Assembly (NCBI GenBank): GCA_017465155.1
Contig: JAFTWV010000123.1
Span: 1-45,541, forward strand
Reading direction: 5' to 3'
DNA length: 45,541 bases
Source of the DNA: Clostridia bacterium
GTDB lineage: Bacteria > Bacillota > Clostridia > Christensenellales > Aristaeellaceae
The first letter of the stretch is position 1, and every line of letters begins with the position of its first letter. Shown here one piece after another: positions 2,832 through 10,550 of this stretch. Both the position numbers and the translations under genes were made by a program. Under the pieces are notes generated by a model, which was not told where the DNA came from, searched no databases, and worked only from the letters and a program-made list of their open reading frames with translations.

Positions 2832-4859
2832 TTAATGATGACGCGTGCTTTCCCGCGTCCGGCGGCGCTTCTTCTGTACATCGTCCTTCTGAACCGTTTC
2901 TCCGCGCATCTCCAGCATCTGATCACGCAGCTTTGCCGCACGCTCGAAGTCCAGCTCCTTTGCCGCAGCCAGCATCTGCTCCTCCAGCTGGCGTACCACC
3001 GCTGCACGCTCCTCCTCGGTCATTTTCGCCGGTGCGCTCTCCTCTACCTTCTTCGTGATTTCCAACACCTGATGAATGGCGTTGCGTACGCTCTCCGGCG
3101 TTATGCCGTTGAGCCGATTATACTCTTCCTGAATGGCGCGCCTGCGGTTTGTTTCGCTGATAGCCCGCATCATGCTGTCCGTCATCACATCCGCATACAT
3201 GATCACCCGGCCGTCCACATTGCGCGCCGCACGGCCGATGGTCTGTACAAGCGACGTTTCCGAGCGCAGGAAGCCTTCCTTGTCCGCATCGAGGATCGCC
3301 ACAAGGCTCACCTCCGGCAGATCAAGGCCTTCGCGCAGCAGGTTGATGCCCACCAGAATGTCGTATTCGCCCAGACGCAGTCCGCGGATCAGCTCCATGC
3401 GCTCCATCGTCGTCATATCAGAATGCAGATAGCGCACGCGCATCTCCATGCCGCGCAGGTATTCCGTCAGGCTCTCAGCCATGCGCTTGGTCAGCGTTGT
3501 CACCAGCACGCGCTGCTTCTTATCCACCACCCTGTGGATCTCGCCCACAAGATCATCCACCTGCCCGGTGGCCGGACGCACGTCAATCTTCGGATCCAGC
3601 AGGCCCGTCGGCCGGATGATCTGCTCCACGATCTGCTTTGTCCTGCCAAGCTCATAAGGGCCGGGCGTTGCGCTGACGTAGATTGTCTGACCGATGCGCT
3701 GCTCAAACTCCTCAAACAGAAGCGGACGGTTGTCAAACGCGCTGGGCAGACGGAAGCCGTACTCTACCAGCTGCTCCTTGCGCGCCCGGTCTCCGTTGTA
3801 CATCGCGCGAATCTGAGGAACGGTCACATGGCTCTCATCAATGATGCACAGGAAGCCCTTAGGGAAATAGTCCAGCAGGGAATAGGGCGCGTCACCGGGC
3901 TTGCGGCCGTCAAAATACCGACTGTAATTCTCAATTCCTGAGCAATAGCCAATCTCGCGCATCATTTCGATATCATAATTGGTACGCTGGGCGATGCGCT
4001 CGGCCTCCAGGGGCTTCCCCTCCTGCGTGAAGCGCTCAATCTGCGCCTGCAGATCCGCCTCGATGACCGCGATGTTTTCGTCCAGATGACTCTTGTCCGT
4101 CGCATAGTGGGTCGCCGGGAAGATCGCCGCATGCTCAAGGTTCGAAAGCACATGCCCGCTGGTCACGTCGATCTGGCTGATTCGGTCAATCTCATCCCCG
4201 AAGAACTCAATGCGCAATCCATGTTCGTTCATCGCCGCAGGAATGATCTCCACCACGTCGCCCCGCACACGGAAGGAACCCCGGGCAAACTCAATGTCAT
4301 TACGCTCGTACTGGATATCAATCAGCAGCCGCAGCAGCCGGTCGCGATCAATGGCCATCCCCGGCCGCAGGGAGATCATCTGTCCCTCATACTCACTGGG
4401 ATCACCCATGGAGTAGATACAGGATACGGACGCGACGATAATCACATCACGGCGTTCCCGCAGCGCAGCCGTGGCACTGTGGCGCAGGCGGTCGATCTCC
4501 TCGTTGATGGACGCGTCCTTTTCAATGTAGGTGTCCGAGGAGGCGATGTAGGCTTCAGGCTGGTAATAATCATAATAGGACACGAAATACTCCACGCGGC
4601 TGTCCGGGAAGAAAGCCTTCAGCTCTGAGCAAAGCTGCGCCGCGAGGGTCTTGTTATGAGCGATAACAAGCGTCGGACGCTGCACCCGTTCGATGACAGA
4701 CGCCATGGTAAAGGTCTTGCCGGAGCCAGTCACGCCCAGCAGCACCTGCGCGTCCATTCCCTGCTGTACCCCTGAAGCGAGGGCATCAATCGCCTGTGGC
4801 TGATCGCCATTGGGCCGATATGGCGCCTTCAGGACGAATTTGCCGGTCAGTTCGGACAT
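2832..4859 (-). CDS. uvrB: excinuclease ABC subunit B
   Basis: The damage-verification helicase of nucleotide excision repair, loaded by UvrA and recruiting UvrC. The 675-aa length is normal. Visible features are the Walker A GVTGSGKT (42-49), the beta-hairpin [11 protein letters not shown] that inserts between DNA strands, DEAD-type IDESHVT, SATP, the helicase motif [11 protein letters not shown], and a C-terminal UVR motif ([15 protein letters not shown]) that contacts UvrC. The start is placed at ATG 4859 because GGAGG is 8 nt upstream; an in-frame GTG at 4868 lies inside that ribosome site. It is transcribed alone. No LexA-type CGAAC-N4-GTTCG box was seen at its promoter. Confidence 0.97.
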
Positions 4860-4897
4860 GAGTATCACCTCCGGAATCGCAGAATGATTGTTCCTGT

Positions 4898-4926
4898 ATC
4901 ATAGCACAACCCGGCTTTCTTGTGAA
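4898..4926 (-). promoter_or_regulatory. uvrB promoter
   Basis: TTCACA (4921-4926), 17-bp spacer, TATGAT (4898-4903) on the minus strand, about 40 bp upstream of the uvrB ATG. Confidence 0.7.
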
Positions 4927-4974
4927 GGGGAACACCGGATTTGCCGTCATTTTCCCGCTTCGCTGTTTATGGGG

Positions 4975-5004
4975 TGGACATGTCCGGCTGCGAAGTGATA
5001 TTAT
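4975..5004 (+). promoter_or_regulatory. promoter of the membrane-anchored HTH gene
   Basis: TGGACA (4975-4980), 18-bp spacer, TATTAT (4999-5004). The ribosome site AAAGGAGG follows at 5015-5022, 7 nt before ATG 5030. Confidence 0.6.
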
Positions 5005-5029
5005 GATGTCATCAAAAGGAGGCATTTGC

Positions 5030-5542
5030 ATGGACACGACGAAAATGGGCACATTCCTGCAGCAGCTCCGCAAGGAACAGGGCATGACACAGGAGCTGTT
5101 GGGGGAGAAGCTTCATGTAAGCAGCAAGACGATCTCCCGCTGGGAAACCGGAGTATACATGCCTCCGGTAGATATGCTGCTGGAGCTTTCCAGAATATAT
5201 GGGTTAAGCATCAACGAGTTGGTTGCTGGCGAGCGTCTTTCTCCTGAAACGCTACCCCACGCAGCAGAAGAAACGCTGACGGCCGTGTTGAAGGAGCAGG
5301 AAATATTCCAGATGCAGGAGCGAAAAGCTTTCTGGCAGAAAAAATGGAACAAAGACCACCGAAGCACCATGATCCTGCTCGCATTGTTCCTGCTCATTGC
5401 GTATCTGCTCGGCACAATCTTTGATTTGGACTGGCTGAGCCTCAGTACCGTGATTGCTGCCGTTTTGACGTCTCTATATCTTACAAACCGCCGTGCAAGC
5501 TACATCGAGCATCATCTCTACGATGACAAGCTGGAGCATTAA
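5030..5542 (+). CDS. XRE-family regulator with C-terminal membrane anchor
   Basis: A 170-aa protein. The N-terminal helix-turn-helix of the Cro/CI type (about residues 8-65; GMTQELLGEKLHVSSKTISRWE) is followed by a charged linker and two membrane segments (about 112-128 and 132-148), ending in a basic/His-rich tail. This is the layout of Firmicute membrane-tethered XRE regulators, which bind DNA close to the membrane; signal and targets are unknown. ATG 5030 is chosen for its AAAGGAGG site, and an upstream in-frame ATG lies before the promoter. Transcribed singly and closed by a bidirectional terminator shared with metQ. Confidence 0.8.
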   Translation: MDTTKMGTFLQQLRKEQGMTQELLGEKLHVSSKTISRWETGVYMPPVDMLLELSRIYGLSINELVAGERLSPETLPHAAEETLTAVLKEQEIFQMQERKAFWQKKWNKDHRSTMILLALFLLIAYLLGTIFDLDWLSLSTVIAAVLTSLYLTNRRASYIEHHLYDDKLEH

Positions 5543-5548
5543 AAGAAA

Positions 5549-5587
5549 CCCCGTGCAGAGCTGTCACGCTCCGCACGGGCATTTTTC
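5549..5587. terminator. bidirectional terminator between the HTH gene and metQ
   Basis: CCCGTGC-A-GAG (5550-5560) pairs with CTC-C-GCACGGG (5569-5579). A plus-strand T-run follows (5582-5586). On the minus strand the stem is followed by GTTTCTTTTAA. It therefore serves both convergent genes. Confidence 0.8.
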
Positions 5588-5601
5588 TGTTATGGATTGA
5601 C

Positions 5602-6423
5602 TCAGAAGGTGGGCACCACGCCGCCGGCGTAGGTATCGTTCATGTACTGACGGGCTTCCTCAGTGGTCAGGGCGGTCTTCAGGGCAGCCAGCCACTCGGA
5701 GTCGACATCCTCAGCGCGCACAGCCACAACATTGGCGTACAGCACGGCGAAGGCAGAATCGGAAGCTTCCAGCGCCAGAGCGTCCACAGCGGGCTTCAGG
5801 CCAGCATCGATGGCGTAGTTGCCGTTGATGACGGCGATGTCATAGTCCGGCAGGGTGGAGGGCAGCAGCTCAGCGGCAACCTCCTCGAACTTGAAACCGC
5901 GGGGGTTCATTTCGTCAGTGATGTCGTACTTGGTCAGCACGGACTCAGCATTCGCGCCTTCGGGCACGGAGATCAGGCCGACAGCAGCCAGCAGCAGCAG
6001 GGCGCGGGTCTCGTTGGAGGGATCGTTGGGCACGCCGATGTAGGCGCCATCCTTCAGCTCCTCCAGGCTCTTCAGGCTGTCAGAGTAAATGCCGAAGGGT
6101 TCATAGTGCACGCTGAACGCGCCAACCAGCTGATCCTTCTCATCCACGGTGGCATTGTAGGAATCAAGGTAGGGCTGATGCTGGAAGTAGTTGGCCATAT
6201 CGGTGCCGTCAGACACAGCAGGATTCTCCAGCACATAGCCGTCGTACACCACGACATCGAGCTTATAGCCCAGCTCAGCCAGCTTGGCAGTCACAGCCTC
6301 GCTCTCGAGGATCTCGGCATGGGGGGCGGCAGTTGCGCCGACGCGGATGACCTTCAGGTCTTCCGCGGCCGCCAGAGACAGGGACAGAACCAGGGCAAGA
6401 ACCAGGGCAAGAATCTTCTTCAT
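5602..6423 (-). CDS. metQ: methionine ABC transporter substrate-binding protein, without lipobox
   Basis: NlpA/MetQ family binding protein, 273 aa, that delivers methionine to MetNI. Seen: a signal peptide ending LAAAED, then the family's VGATAAPHAEIL start, MANYFQHQPYL, IGVPNDPSNETRALLLL and INGNYAIDAGL (the NG-N-A ligand-pocket region). The signal peptide has no cysteine. MetQ is normally a lipoprotein, so this one is predicted to be cleaved by signal peptidase I and released, or held another way. It follows metI after 183 bp that contain two small hairpins but no clear promoter. Ribosome site AAAGGAG is 9 nt upstream of the ATG. Confidence 0.92.
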   Translation of the reverse strand: MKKILALVLALVLSLSLAAAEDLKVIRVGATAAPHAEILESEAVTAKLAELGYKLDVVVYDGYVLENPAVSDGTDMANYFQHQPYLDSYNATVDEKDQLVGAFSVHYEPFGIYSDSLKSLEELKDGAYIGVPNDPSNETRALLLLAAVGLISVPEGANAESVLTKYDITDEMNPRGFKFEEVAAELLPSTLPDYDIAVINGNYAIDAGLKPAVDALALEASDSAFAVLYANVVAVRAEDVDSEWLAALKTALTTEEARQYMNDTYAGGVVPTF

Positions 6424-6606
6424 GGTAGGTTGCTCCTTTCATTTTGTGGAACTTATTCAGACGCGGAACGCCGCGAGAGAACCAAGATAAGAGGGGGTGG
6501 TTTTAGGAACCTTTCCAAAGGGGTTGGTTTAGGGATGTTTCGCTGTCTTGTTGAAACGACGCGATTTCTTCCTTGATCGACACCCGGTATTTGCCTTGGA
6601 CGTCTC
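6424..6606 (-). other. metI-metQ intergenic region with hairpins
   Basis: Minus-strand hairpins: an imperfect AACC/GGTT plus CTTT/AAAG stem near 6508-6530, and GCGG-CGTT-CCGC near 6466-6477. Neither has a T-tract. They could protect mRNA ends and allow metQ to be made in excess of metNI, which is common for binding proteins; this is inference. Confidence 0.3.
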
Positions 6607-7272
6607 TTATTTGCGACGGCGGTGATCGATCACGTGAGACAGCGTCGTACCACCAACCTGGAACAGCTGCACCAGCAGTACCAGAACAATACTCGCCGCA
6701 TACATCACATCATATTGCCTCTTGTTCAGGCCATAGGTGATCGCCACCTTACCCAGACCGTCGCCGCCTGCCGTACCAGCCATCGCCGTGTACGCCAGAA
6801 TCGTCGTGATGCAAATTGCAAAGCCGTTCACCAGACTCGGCATCGCCTCCGGAATCAGCACCTTGCGCACGATTTGGAGCGTGCTTGAGCCCATCGACTG
6901 CGCTGCCTCCACCACGCCGGAATCAACCTCCAGCAGGCTCGACTCCACCATACGCGCCACATACGGGAAGGCACTGATCGTCAGCGGCACAATGACCGAC
7001 GCTGTGCCGGTGCCGCGGCCCATAATCGCGCGGGTTACAGGGAACAGCATCACCATCAGGATGATGAAGGGAACCGAACGCAGCAAATTCACCACAATGC
7101 CCAGCACACGGTTGAGCGTGGGCAGGGGCATGATGCCGTCCTTGCGGGTGATGACCAGCAGTACGCCCAGCGGCAGACCCAGTAAATAAGCAATCAGCGT
7201 GGATGGAATGGTCATGAACAGCGTGTTGCAGGTTTCTTCAGCAAGCATCGCCATCAGTGTGTTCCAGCTCAT
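6607..7272 (-). CDS. metI: methionine ABC transporter permease
   Basis: A 221-aa inner-membrane permease with about five membrane segments, forming the channel of the MetNI importer. It carries the family's cytoplasmic EAA-like loop (SSLLEVDSGVVEAAQSMGSSTLQIVRKVLIPEAMPS region). The ATG at 7272 overlaps the metN TGA (ATGA). A longer in-frame extension inside metN was not used. Order metN-metI-metQ is the usual one. Confidence 0.95.
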   Translation of the reverse strand: MSWNTLMAMLAEETCNTLFMTIPSTLIAYLLGLPLGVLLVITRKDGIMPLPTLNRVLGIVVNLLRSVPFIILMVMLFPVTRAIMGRGTGTASVIVPLTISAFPYVARMVESSLLEVDSGVVEAAQSMGSSTLQIVRKVLIPEAMPSLVNGFAICITTILAYTAMAGTAGGDGLGKVAITYGLNKRQYDVMYAASIVLVLLVQLFQVGGTTLSHVIDHRRRK

Positions 7273-8300
7273 GCCTGACGCACCTCCTCCACCGTCAGCC
7301 CGCGTCCCTTCAGGTACGCAAAGGCCTTGTCGCAAACATCCCGGTTCTCCGGACGGGTGATGAGCATCTGACCATACTGCGCGCCGTTAAGGGTATGGAC
7401 GTCGGCGGACAGGATGCTCACCGGCTGGCCCAGATGCAGGATCAGCTCGGCAATGATGGGCTCGGACAGCTGCTCGCCGTCAAAGACGATACGAAGGGCA
7501 GGCGCTTCCGCCAGCTCTTCGCGGTTCTCGGGGGTCACGATACCGAACAGTCGCTTGCCTGCCGCAGACTTGGTGTGGGTGAACACCTCGTCCACGCTGC
7601 CCTCCTCGGCAATCACGCCGCCATCAAGGATGGCAACATGCGTGCAGATTTGCCGGATAACCGCCATCTCATGGGTGATGACCACAATGGTGATGCCCAG
7701 CTCACGGTTGATCTGCTGCAGCAGGCGCAGGATGGACTGGGTGGTCATGGGGTCAAGAGCGGAGGTCGCCTCGTCGCACAGCAGCACTTCAGGGTCGCTT
7801 GCCAGTGCACGGGCAATAGCCACGCGCTGCTTCTGGCCGCCGGACAGCTGGGACGGATACGCCTTGGCCTTATCGGACAGGCCGACGATTTCCAGCAGCT
7901 CCGCCACGCGCTTGCGAATCCGCTCTTTCGGCACGCCCGCGATCTCCATCGGGTAGGCGATGTTCTTGGCGACAGTCTGCTGCATCAGCAGATTGAACTG
8001 CTGGAAGATCATGCTCATCTTGCGGCGCATGAGGTTCAGCTGCTGCTTGTTCATCTCCGGCACATTTTTGCCGCAGAAGAGGATCTTACCCTCCGTGGGC
8101 GTATCGAGCCTGTTTACGCAGCGGATGAGCGTGCTCTTGCCCGCGCCTGACAGGCCGATGATGCCGAAGATATCGCCCTTGTGAATCTTGAGGCTGATGT
8201 TGTCCAGCGCCACGACCTCGCCGCCGGTCACAGGGTAGACCTTGCGTACGTTCTGCAGCTCGATCTGACAGGGACGATTGGTATCCTGGATAGAATCCAT
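7269..8300 (-). CDS. metN: methionine ABC transporter ATP-binding protein
   Basis: A 343-aa ATPase of the MetNI importer. Walker A GLSGAGKST (49-57), Q-loop FQQFN, signature LSGGQKQR, Walker B VLLCDEATSALD and switch histidine (VITHE) are all present. The C-terminal NIL domain (about 265-340) binds methionine and trans-inhibits transport in the E. coli homologue. The gene lies directly downstream of an intrinsic terminator and a methionine-rich leader ORF, so its expression is probably controlled by attenuation. AGAGGGA 6-7 nt upstream supports ATG 8300. Confidence 0.96.
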   Translation of the reverse strand: MDSIQDTNRPCQIELQNVRKVYPVTGGEVVALDNISLKIHKGDIFGIIGLSGAGKSTLIRCVNRLDTPTEGKILFCGKNVPEMNKQQLNLMRRKMSMIFQQFNLLMQQTVAKNIAYPMEIAGVPKERIRKRVAELLEIVGLSDKAKAYPSQLSGGQKQRVAIARALASDPEVLLCDEATSALDPMTTQSILRLLQQINRELGITIVVITHEMAVIRQICTHVAILDGGVIAEEGSVDEVFTHTKSAAGKRLFGIVTPENREELAEAPALRIVFDGEQLSEPIIAELILHLGQPVSILSADVHTLNGAQYGQMLITRPENRDVCDKAFAYLKGRGLTVEEVRQA

Positions 8301-8320
8301 GTGCTTCCCTCTTTCTCCAT

Positions 8321-8356
8321 AAAAAACAGGGGATGCCGCTCAGATGCAGCCTCCCC
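8321..8356 (-). terminator. intrinsic terminator (attenuator) in the metN leader
   Basis: On the minus strand GGGGAGGCTGC pairs with GCGGCATCCCC around an ATCTGA loop (one mismatch, one G-U), followed by TGTTTTTTATGG. It ends only about 20 nt before the metN ATG and after the leader ORF, so it can only act on metN transcription. Confidence 0.8.
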
Positions 8357-8366
8357 TTCTCTACCC

Positions 8367-8410
8367 TCACGGTGGTCTTCAAGAGCGCCTGCCCTTACCT
8401 TCCGCCGTGA
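8367..8410 (-). promoter_or_regulatory. leader hairpin between the leader-peptide stop and the attenuator
   Basis: TCACGGCGG (8402-8410, minus-strand sense) can pair with CCACCGTGA (8367-8375), 8 of 9 pairs. It begins 2 nt after the leader stop codon, where a terminating ribosome would cover it. It may act as pause or antiterminator stem; the role is inferred. Confidence 0.5.
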
Positions 8411-8412
8411 TA

Positions 8413-8514
8413 TTACGAAAAGCGCATCTGATTTTCGGCACAGCAACGCATGCTCATGCGGCACATGCACATGGGCATCATCATGTTGATCATGGCGTTG
8501 CGGTCGAACTTCAT
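8413..8514 (-). CDS. methionine/cysteine-rich leader peptide of metNIQ, 33 aa
   Basis: A short ORF between a consensus promoter and the attenuator. ATG 8514 has the ribosome site AAGGGAG about 9 nt upstream; stop TAA is at 8413-8415. The peptide begins MKFDRNAMIN, continues MMMPMCMCRMSMRCC and ends in NQMRFS. Ten of 33 residues are Met and four are Cys. There is no signal peptide and no family recognised. Placement and composition match ribosome-mediated attenuation: stalling at Met codons when charged Met-tRNA is scarce would let metN be transcribed. Near its 3' end TCAGATGC (8424-8431) is complementary to the terminator loop and 5' arm (8340-8347), offering an antiterminator pairing that a ribosome at the stop codon would block. 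An alternative is a metal-binding Met/Cys peptide. Confidence 0.75.
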   Translation of the reverse strand: MKFDRNAMINMMMPMCMCRMSMRCCAENQMRFS

Positions 8515-8548
8515 CAGCGCTTTCTCCCTTCTTCAGGTGTTGTATACA

Positions 8549-8578
8549 AGCATAACATATGCCCGGCGGCTTTGTCAA
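8549..8578 (-). promoter_or_regulatory. promoter of the metNIQ leader
   Basis: TTGACA (8573-8578), 18-bp spacer, TATGCT (8549-8554) on the minus strand. The predicted transcript start near 8541 leaves about 27 nt before the leader ATG. No SAM-box or T-box motif is visible in the leader. Confidence 0.75.
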
Positions 8579-8677
8579 CCCTAAATGACGGATTTGGCGT
8601 TTTTTTGCATTTGTTTCTTTGCGTGTATGGCAACAGCTGCATATCTTGAAAATCTGCTGGAAAATCTCCCCTTCCTC

Positions 8678-8706
8678 TTGCTTTCTGCTGCCTGAACCGC
8701 TACAAT
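8678..8706 (+). promoter_or_regulatory. promoter of the L,D-transpeptidase gene
   Basis: TTGCTT (8678-8683), 17-bp spacer, TACAAT (8701-8706), about 33 bp before ATG 8739. Confidence 0.7.
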
Positions 8707-8738
8707 AGCTGTGTACGAATACATGATGAGGTATGCCC

Positions 8739-10550
8739 ATGAAACAATTGCTTGCATTCCTGCTGCTTACGGTCATGCTGCTGCCCTGCGCGGTGCTGGC
8801 GGAATCCAACGCCGTTCCTATGGACGAATACGATGATGAAATCGAAATCGTCCCCGTGGACGACTACGGCGATGAAGACGAGGTCGTCATCATGGATGAT
8901 AACGGCAGCACTGCCCTGCCGACGTATCAGCCGCTGATCTACGGCGCTTTCGGCGAAGGGGTTGCAGAGCTCCAGCTGAAGCTGGCCGAGCTGCATTACT
9001 ATGACGGCGAGATTACCGGCTCCTATGGCGATCTGACCCGTGCGGCAGTCAAGGCCTTCCAGTCGGATTTCAGCCTGCTGCAGACTGGCGAGGCCGATGC
9101 AGAGACTCAGGAGCTTCTCTTCTCCACGAGATACCGTCCGCTGCGTCTGGGCTGCACGGGCGAGGACGTACGTCTGCTGCAGGTACGTCTCACAGCGCTG
9201 GGCTATTACAGCAGCAAGCTCAGCGGCACCTATCTGCCTTCCACGCAGGAAGCGGTGTACAATTTCCAGATGTGCAGCGGCGAAATCCCCACCGGCCAGG
9301 CTGATGTTGATACCCTGACGCTCCTGTACAGTGAGGATGCAGTGAGCTATGCGGAAGGCATGGCTTCCCTGCCCGACGTCACCCCCGCCCCCACGGCTCT
9401 GGACATGCTGGACGCAGCCCCCCTCACACCTGCGCCGACGGTCGAATACACCAAGACCCTGCGTTATGAGGACAAAGGTACGCTGGTCAAGACACTCCAG
9501 CAGCGCCTGACTGATCTGGGGTATTATGAAGGCAATATCTCCGGCAACTTCCTTGGCCACACCCGCAACGCAGTCAAGGCCTTTCAGACACAGAACGCCC
9601 TGAAGGCTGACGGCGTCGTCGGCGAGCAGACCTGGAACGCCCTGTTCAACGACCCGGACGCCCGTTCCGTCGACGACGCGCCCAAGCCCACACCGGAACC
9701 TACGCCTGTGCCCTACGCCATCACCGTCGACGTGAACAATCAGGTCACCACCGTTTATGGTCTGGATGAGAACGGCGAATATACGAAGGTTGTCCGGCAG
9801 ATGCTATGCTCCACGGGCACCCGCTCTGCCCCCAGCGATGTGGGCGACTGGGTGCTCACCGGCCGCACAGCCCGTTGGTGCTACTTCCCCAAGTGGGGCG
9901 GCCATGCCCAGTACTGGACAAAGATCAACGAATCCATCGCCTTCCACAGCGTTATTTACAGCCAGGTGGACAACATGGCCCTGAAGGTCTCCAGCTACAA
10001 GAACCTTGGCAAGCGCGCCTCCCACGGCTGCATCCGCCTGACCGTTGCCGACGCAAAGTGGATTTACTACAACTGCGGCGCTGGCGTGGTGGTTACCATC
10101 ACGGAGGATCTGCCTGCCGATCCGGAGCTGCGCGCCGCGCTCAAGTTGCCTGGGCTCGATTACAGCTGTATGCTGCCCATCATCACCCCCGCACCCACGG
10201 CAGCACCTGAGTATGTCTCCGGCGCAAAACCGCCCATGCCCTTCAAGACCCTTAAAAAGAACAGCTCCGGCGAGGCGGTTTACTGGCTGCAGTGCAAGCT
10301 CAAGGAGCTGGGCTACTACAACGGCTATGTGTCCGGCACGTATCTGGGCGGCACGGTAAACGCCGTCAAGGCCTTCCAGAAAGCCAACGGTCTGACCGCT
10401 AATGGCACCGCAGATGAAAAGACCCTGCGCAAGATCTATGCACAGGAGCTTGCCACTGCAGCGCCCTCCCCGACAGTCTCTCGCACGCCCAATGCGACAC
10501 CTTCCTTCACCCCCGCGCCTGCCCCGACGGCTACGCCTGCCGCTCAATAA
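8739..10550 (+). CDS. secreted L,D-transpeptidase with four peptidoglycan-binding domains
   Basis: A 603-aa cell-wall cross-linking enzyme. Order: signal peptide (cleavage near VLA-ES), acidic linker rich in D/E/Y, three PG_binding_1 repeats (about residues 62-125, 133-195 and 240-305; each with LGYY or LHYY and AVKAFQ-type cores), a YkuD catalytic domain (about 325-465) with the SHGCIRL motif (H429, C431), a fourth PG_binding_1 repeat (about 500-565) and a Pro/Thr tail. YkuD enzymes make 3-3 cross-links or attach proteins to peptidoglycan; four binding modules suggest firm wall anchoring. ATG 8739 is preferred over 8733 because GAGG lies 7-8 nt before it. Confidence 0.92.
   Translation: MKQLLAFLLLTVMLLPCAVLAESNAVPMDEYDDEIEIVPVDDYGDEDEVVIMDDNGSTALPTYQPLIYGAFGEGVAELQLKLAELHYYDGEITGSYGDLTRAAVKAFQSDFSLLQTGEADAETQELLFSTRYRPLRLGCTGEDVRLLQVRLTALGYYSSKLSGTYLPSTQEAVYNFQMCSGEIPTGQADVDTLTLLYSEDAVSYAEGMASLPDVTPAPTALDMLDAAPLTPAPTVEYTKTLRYEDKGTLVKTLQQRLTDLGYYEGNISGNFLGHTRNAVKAFQTQNALKADGVVGEQTWNALFNDPDARSVDDAPKPTPEPTPVPYAITVDVNNQVTTVYGLDENGEYTKVVRQMLCSTGTRSAPSDVGDWVLTGRTARWCYFPKWGGHAQYWTKINESIAFHSVIYSQVDNMALKVSSYKNLGKRASHGCIRLTVADAKWIYYNCGAGVVVTITEDLPADPELRAALKLPGLDYSCMLPIITPAPTAAPEYVSGAKPPMPFKTLKKNSSGEAVYWLQCKLKELGYYNGYVSGTYLGGTVNAVKAFQKANGLTANGTADEKTLRKIYAQELATAAPSPTVSRTPNATPSFTPAPAPTATPAAQ

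Follow-up and report, generated by a model that had tools for sequence, protein, structure and literature searches.

Ribosome-mediated attenuators of the trp/his/leu type are known from the Proteobacteria. In Firmicutes, control of the methionine genes is usually attributed to repressors, SAM riboswitches or Met T-boxes, the SAM riboswitch (RF00162) and the Met T-box acting there through premature termination. In C. perfringens, according to the accessible part of the source, metK and metT are under S-boxes and the cysteine genes under T-boxes (PMC2940859). Leader-peptide attenuation has been described within this T-box-dominated phylum, namely for hisS/hisZ in bacilli (PMC2965389) and for a leucine-rich attenuator peptide in S. 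aureus (PMC5794164), the accessible portions of both sources dealing with amino acids and genes other than those considered here. The Cys-rich leader peptides of Actinobacteria resemble the present case in that sulfur amino acid codons occur in runs within a leader ORF, but their Cys codons lie near the stop and the available text of the survey reports no conserved terminator hairpins, nor any conserved RNA structure before methionine operons (PMC1262725).

The closest described system is metL of S. lividans, a 29-residue leader upstream of metNIQ that was predicted to be an attenuator, with termination left unclear in the available text (PMC8079986). Like the leader described below, metL encodes a short peptide that contains Met and Cys and lies immediately ahead of metNIQ. 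Unlike it, metL lies on a leaderless transcript, has two internal Met codons and no typical Rho-independent terminator, and was described in one genome; the accessible part of the description mentions neither an antiterminator nor covariation (PMC8079986). A full-text literature search, thin on subscription journals, found no clostridial Met leader. The author of an earlier note on this DNA knew of no described Met-codon attenuator of this form. This has to be narrowed, as metL had been predicted in S. lividans (PMC8079986), and it holds in so far as metL appears there without an intrinsic terminator. Our best reading is that the present locus is a new clostridial variant of the metNIQ Met leader and not a new kind of leader, because the S. 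lividans example, without an intrinsic terminator, is already in print.

The DNA analysed here, called the window, comprises positions 1 to 45,541 of contig JAFTWV010000123.1 (assembly GCA_017465155.1) of a Clostridia bacterium of the Aristaeellaceae. The features of interest are collected in Table 1. Direct reading bore out the coordinates in the earlier note, together with its promoter, its 33-codon ORF with 10 Met and 4 Cys codons, the hairpin after the stop codon and the terminator. Nine of the Met codons are internal (codons 8, 11, 12, 13, 15, 17, 20, 22 and 30), and about 20 nt separate the end of the terminator from the metN ATG at 8300. A simple consensus scan listed no terminator in 8100-8900, perhaps due to the internal mismatch in the stem. 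The ORF region folded alone is no better than its shuffles (z 0.07).

Table 1. Features of the leader region and of the metNIQ operon in the window (nt, given 5' to 3' on the forward strand).
Feature	Position	Strand	Basis
Sigma-70-type promoter, TTGACA-18-TATGCT, TG ahead of the -10	8549..8578	-	Consensus scan
Shine-Dalgarno GGGAG, 9 nt ahead of the leader ATG	8524..8528	-	Sequence reading
Leader ORF, 33 codons, Met/Cys-rich, MKFDRNAMINMMMPMCMCRMSMRCCAENQMRFS	8413..8514	-	Sequence and shuffle tests
Putative control region, Met codons 8-22	8449..8493	-	Modelled stalling
Predicted antiterminator 5' half at the ORF end, AUCAGAUGCGCUUUUCG	8416..8432	-	Duplex of -20.9 kcal/mol with 8356-8340
Spacer hairpin just past the stop codon	8367..8410	-	Folding: -21.1 kcal/mol, z -4.6
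Predicted antiterminator 3' half (terminator 5' arm and loop)	8340..8356	-	Duplex folding, window folding
Intrinsic terminator, stem 8357-8328, six T at 8326-8321	8321..8357	-	Folding: -22.6 kcal/mol, z -3.6
metN	7269..8300	-	ABC ATPase with C-terminal NIL domain; best NCBIfam match MetN, 358 bits (cut-off 499.7)
metI permease	6607..7335	-	NCBIfam MetI, 205.9 bits (cut-off 212)
metQ, NlpA/MetQ-type binding protein	5602..6423	-	Pfam Lipoprotein_9 reached; NCBIfam MetQ, 143.1 bits (cut-off 374)

Pairing is possible between the ORF end and the terminator. The earlier note had pointed to TCAGATGC (8431-8424) as complementary to the terminator loop and 5' arm, and it is indeed a perfect complement, over 8 nt, of GCATCTGA (8347-8340). 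It had also taken TCAGATGC to be the antiterminator; here the pairing stands and the extent does not, the duplex being longer, with 15 pairs in the window and 19 in the structure counted across the family. The spacer hairpin would be enclosed by the antiterminator if the latter forms, and it is perhaps a pause site or brings the two antiterminator halves together.

Taken together with the relatives and the ribosome models described below, the leader is very probably a ribosome-mediated (trp-type) transcription attenuator that would sense methionine shortage through its codons. RNA polymerase would start downstream of the promoter and a ribosome would begin to translate the leader ORF. A shortage of charged elongator Met-tRNA would make this ribosome stall in the Met run and leave the end of the ORF free to pair with the nascent terminator 5' arm and loop, so that no terminator forms and transcription proceeds into metNIQ. 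With ample Met-tRNA, a ribosome at the stop codon would cover the ORF end, the terminator would form and transcription would stop before metN. In this scheme the translation of the ORF, the stalling, the termination and the methionine signal are what we infer.

What is found here has the make-up of a trp-type system: an ORF rich in cognate codons and preceded by a Shine-Dalgarno sequence, an intrinsic terminator, an antiterminator that excludes it and, in the models, a fitting placement of the Met codons. As in the trp/his/leu-type attenuators, a ribosome at the stop codon would favour termination. The differences are that Met would be sensed here, that the operon encodes a transporter and that the 5' half of the antiterminator lies inside the ORF end.

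A known RNA element was considered and rejected for the window: no Rfam family, SAM riboswitch and T-box included, reaches its gathering score anywhere in it, and none appears even at E=5 in 8250-8600, in keeping with the earlier note, which had seen no such motif. The leader loci of relatives that were scanned with Rfam likewise gave no riboswitch or T-box, one set returning only tRNA genes and the other nothing. Unlike genes under a SAM riboswitch or Met T-box, the window and the scanned leader loci thus have neither aptamer nor T-box.

The Met-rich leader ORF is not explained by chance. When the 300 nt ahead of metN are dinucleotide-shuffled 5000 times, no ORF preceded by a Shine-Dalgarno sequence has more than 6 internal Met, compared to the 9 observed, and among the 179 such ORFs of 15-45 codons on both strands of the whole window the runner-up has 4. 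The 8-nt complement, on the other hand, is equalled in 65 of 5000 trials in which the codons of the ORF are shuffled, and the pairing in the window taken alone is therefore only suggestive.

A search of 308 genomes of the window's family for MetN orthologues gave 94 genomes with a match at E up to 1e-110, at 95 places. Of these places 90 were examined (L031-L060 and L141-L200, window included), and 88 have enough upstream sequence. An automatic rule finds leaders with at least three internal Met at 57 of the 88, and ten more have one or two internal Met together with the kept RNA motif. The remaining 21 were read by eye; eight have the same kind of leader (L043, L048, L141, L144, L150, L163, L165 and L166), and 13 metN places have no leader. 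An ORF with at least three internal Met and a Shine-Dalgarno sequence ahead of it lies upstream of 57 of 86 family metN genes (window included), whereas shuffles lead to an expectation of 0.8; for at least four internal Met the figures are 37 of 86 (window included) and 0.2. Of the 73 leader ORFs, 70 have a promoter-like site with a score of 10 or more out of 12 in the 110 nt ahead of them; the mean score is 11.1, as against 7.9 for shuffled sequence.

In some leaders of genus g66 (L047, L051, L052, L055 and L059) there are one or two internal Met, and the antiterminator and terminator RNA persist; we propose that the sensor has decayed or been re-tuned in these. At L032/L063, where the closest MetN relative found is encoded (76%), reading by eye shows a promoter directly ahead of metN and no leader. 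At L076, whose metN is without a leader, a SAM riboswitch occupies the corresponding place (806-905).

When a profile built from 22 leaders of the family is run against the 308 genomes, 49 of them give matches at E up to 2e-4, 51 in all. From coordinates and reading, 46 of them lie directly before metN; the other five are near a contig end where the next gene is unreadable (G150:C82, G152:C18, G157:C295, G160:C41 and G125:C141), with about 240 bases following the match in G125:C141 and no metN start visible among them. Among the weaker matches inspected, that in G123 (E 0.004) has unrelated sequence around it. With a profile of the xMRMSM type, E up to 0.01, matches are found in 12 of 395 genomes of the order and 1 of 391 of the class, all belonging to the window's family. 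The window's own leader does not match the 22-leader profile at E up to 1, and is therefore either a divergent member or an independent one.

For the wider set of genome contigs, the best 80 of 591 MetN candidates were taken, from which 71 non-family loci (L067-L140) were tested. Eight of the 71 have at least four internal Met, compared to 0.05 expected: L072, L084 (Agathobaculum), L092, L093, L113 (Herbinix), L115, L118 and L120. As L092 is similar to L118 in its leader, and L093 to L113, the eight loci amount to about six types. The contig of L093 is labelled as an Anaerolineaceae MAG, and it has neighbouring tRNAs in common with L113 as well as a near-identical leader before metN; its label may be a binning error.

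As far as sequence goes, these counts support a Met-codon attenuator that is widespread in the window's family, with look-alikes in other Clostridia. The check that the earlier note had suggested upstream of metNIQ in homologues, covering the Met-rich ORF, the terminator and the alternative pairing, came out in favour of its reading as classical attenuation, to which the covariation and the modelled geometry of the Met codons, both given below, lend further support.

The comparison of leaders also bears on nascent-chain arrest, in which the Met-rich peptide would stall the ribosome on sensing a metabolite, and not for lack of charged tRNA. The core xMRMSM is fairly constant across the 22 aligned family leaders, as such a peptide would have it. 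We consider this very improbable, because the non-family leaders have Met/Cys richness in common with the family type but little sequence, and because part of the constancy is at the RNA level; at L003 the ORF stops earlier, yet the bases TTTGTGTTGC persist beyond its stop. An uptake system induced by plentiful Met would, moreover, be illogical.

An intrinsic terminator is located between the leader stop and metN at 74 of 75 leader loci (window included), two doubtful candidate ORFs, L015 and L173, having been dropped ahead of this count. The terminator of L181 is poor and L189 has none by the rule used, and these two loci were left out of the duplex, ribosome-masking and nascent-terminator analyses, which cover 73 loci. 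The strong additional hairpin at 8410-8367 in the window could be thought to belong to an undescribed riboswitch or a protein-bound leader in which the Met-rich ORF is incidental. This is extremely unlikely in our judgement: in many relatives only 12-30 nt separate the leader stop from the terminator, which leaves no room for such a hairpin, and among nine longer or divergent spacers that were folded only that of L084 (Agathobaculum; -23.3 kcal/mol) is comparable to the window's. The Rfam scans of the window and of the leader loci, with no riboswitch family found, also speak against it.

In the family the tail of the ORF approximates CGnGCUnUUUGUGuuGCGccGCUUGA and its partner GAGCccCGCuuCGCAAAnnGCGCG, which comprises the terminator 5' arm, the loop and the start of the 3' arm. 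Covariation was counted on 43 of 74 loci; 30 were set aside, the window among them, on account of a shifted stop codon, a differing architecture or a position outside the main type, and one identical row was removed. Over the 43 loci, 85.4% of the antiterminator cells are paired (80.1 in shuffles), and 52 cells are doubly changed, compared to 15.6 in shuffles (sd 3.3; reached by 0 of 500). If the partner is shifted along by one to three columns, no more than 18 doubly changed cells remain, part of the excess over these shifted versions being expected as the antiterminator was derived from the same sequences. Ten pairs have double changes, against 7.1 in shuffles, of which 19 of 500 reach ten. 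The competing terminator covaries as well, with 87.7% of cells paired and 24 doubly changed against 6.4. For the window, which is absent from this set, it is the duplex energy that supports the antiterminator.

Duplex energies across loci point the same way. When the ORF tails are paired with their own whole terminator hairpin and compared with codon-shuffled controls, the mean z is -0.99, with 40 of 73 loci below -1 and 17 of 73 at p up to 0.05; the tails also pair slightly better with their own terminators than with those of other loci (mean z -0.47). The loci are related, and these z and p values thus overstate independence. A narrower duplex test, confined to the terminator 5' arm and loop, gives 3 of 73 loci at p<0.05 and a median p of 0.245. 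RNAalifold on the alignment proposes a short local hairpin and four terminator pairs, and not the antiterminator. For an anti-antiterminator (1:2) hairpin just past the Met run, the mean z against codon shuffles is -0.29 over 51 loci. By eye, a helix CGAAUGUC:GACAUUCG, joining Met codons with post-stop bases, can be drawn in part of the family and not in the rest.

Met and Cys serve as metal ligands, and the ORF could accordingly be imagined to encode a functional Met/Cys-rich small protein for metal binding, the terminator being an ordinary feature of the operon. It is hardly credible, however, that this is the function. The leaders vary widely in sequence and length while the position before metN and the terminator persist, and the ORF tail covaries with the terminator. 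A known protein family was likewise rejected for the leader, none of the four leaders tested having a Pfam or NCBIfam match.

The positions at which a ribosome would free or block the antiterminator were modelled by masking its footprint and refolding the RNA. Averaged over the 73 loci, the terminator has a pair probability of 0.90 in ribosome-free RNA and of 0.95 when a ribosome sits at the stop codon. As the ribosome is stepped along the ORF (mask of 13 nt, the outcome being alike for 10 and 16 nt), the terminator falls to 0.62-0.64 at the run's last Met codons and the two before, whereas the value is 0.87 ten codons ahead of the run's last Met and 0.94 twelve codons after it. The minimum coincides with the last Met codons. 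With the ribosome on the most favourable Met codon, the terminator falls under 0.5 at equilibrium in 37 of 73 loci and does not in the other 36.

A second model describes the moment at which transcription has just completed the terminator 5' arm and loop. The fraction held by the ORF is then on average 0.62 for a Met-stalled ribosome, 0.48 for codon-shuffled tails and 0.45 for ribosome-free RNA, the value with the ribosome at the stop codon being zero by construction. This hold is above the codon-shuffled control in 62 of 73 loci; the 11 in which it is not include the Met-rich L070, L072, L093 and L113. For the window itself, the terminator has an equilibrium probability of 0.97 when no ribosome is present or when one is at the stop codon, 0.47 with the ribosome at Met 13 and 0.29 at Met 20, and 0.70-0.94 at the run's other Met codons. 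The corresponding snapshot gives the antiterminator 0.97 for a ribosome at Met 13 or 20, and still 0.78 without a ribosome.

It is necessary to consider also the Cys codons, as Cys is enriched in these leaders. In ten leaders, hand-picked as one per sequence type, Cys accounts for 34 of 280 residues, compared to 1.0% in six proteins of the window. If all bases except those of the Met codons are shuffled, the expectation is 7.8 Cys, and 34 is reached by 0 of 2000 shuffles. This enrichment would fit a dual sulfur amino acid attenuator, in which a stall at either Met or Cys codons would give read-through and the operon would answer both shortages. The S. lividans metNIQ leader likewise ends CMCRRMCAF in the accessible text (PMC8079986), and in the window a stall at Cys 16 gives a P(AT) of 0.66. 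We nevertheless regard dual sensing as doubtful. Plain dinucleotide shuffling of the ORFs, by which the TG and GC steps of those codons are preserved, already yields 25 Cys, and 38 of 2000 such shuffles reach 34. The density of Cys peaks over the final nine residues (18.9%, versus 9.9% before), which is where the antiterminator sits. In the models (73 loci, mask 13), the mean terminator probability for a ribosome stalled at Cys, 0.837, is like that for other codons, 0.846, and unlike that for Met, 0.743; in the window, stalls at Cys 18, 24 and 25 give a P(AT) of 0.01 or less. A wider version can be offered only tentatively, namely that a sulfur amino acid attenuator had more than one origin before metNIQ in Clostridia, reads Met and Cys, and tells elongator from initiator Met-tRNA, a distinction that it would have to make because its own translation starts with Met.

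The operon downstream has the MetNIQ layout according to Pfam, with a NIL-domain ATPase, a permease and an NlpA/MetQ-type binding protein adjoining one another. None of the three window proteins reaches its own curated NCBIfam cut-off for MetN, MetI or MetQ, and we therefore infer the substrate. The listed TTG start of metI overlaps metN, and translation of metI probably begins further downstream. The MetQ-type protein begins like a signal peptide, yet as translated it is without a nearby cysteine usable as a lipobox.

A misbinned contig was ruled out, as the uvrB adjoining the operon is 82-92% identical to that of 17 same-genus genomes. In 13 of these 17, the contig that carries uvrB also has a MetN-like match no more than ~6 kb away from it, and the same-genus MetN proteins that were compared are ~48-51% identical to the window's. 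Nine same-genus metN upstream regions were read; they contain a metQ-like gene and a terminator-like hairpin, and not a Met-rich leader, and an Rfam search of the same-genus upstream regions gave no match. Since same-genus genomes carry a different MetN near the same uvrB, without a Met-rich leader, an exchange of both operon and attenuator appears to have taken place at the uvrB-side locus (window 2832-8300) in the window's species.

Finally, Met starvation should lower both initiation and elongation, and a Met attenuator would thus work only if elongator Met-tRNA runs short first. A conserved Met-codon attenuator, if true, would be a rare classical leader-peptide system in Firmicutes, and naming such leaders would improve the annotation of small ORFs before metN. 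It would also explain how metNIQ is controlled in a family of Clostridia that is known mainly from metagenomes.
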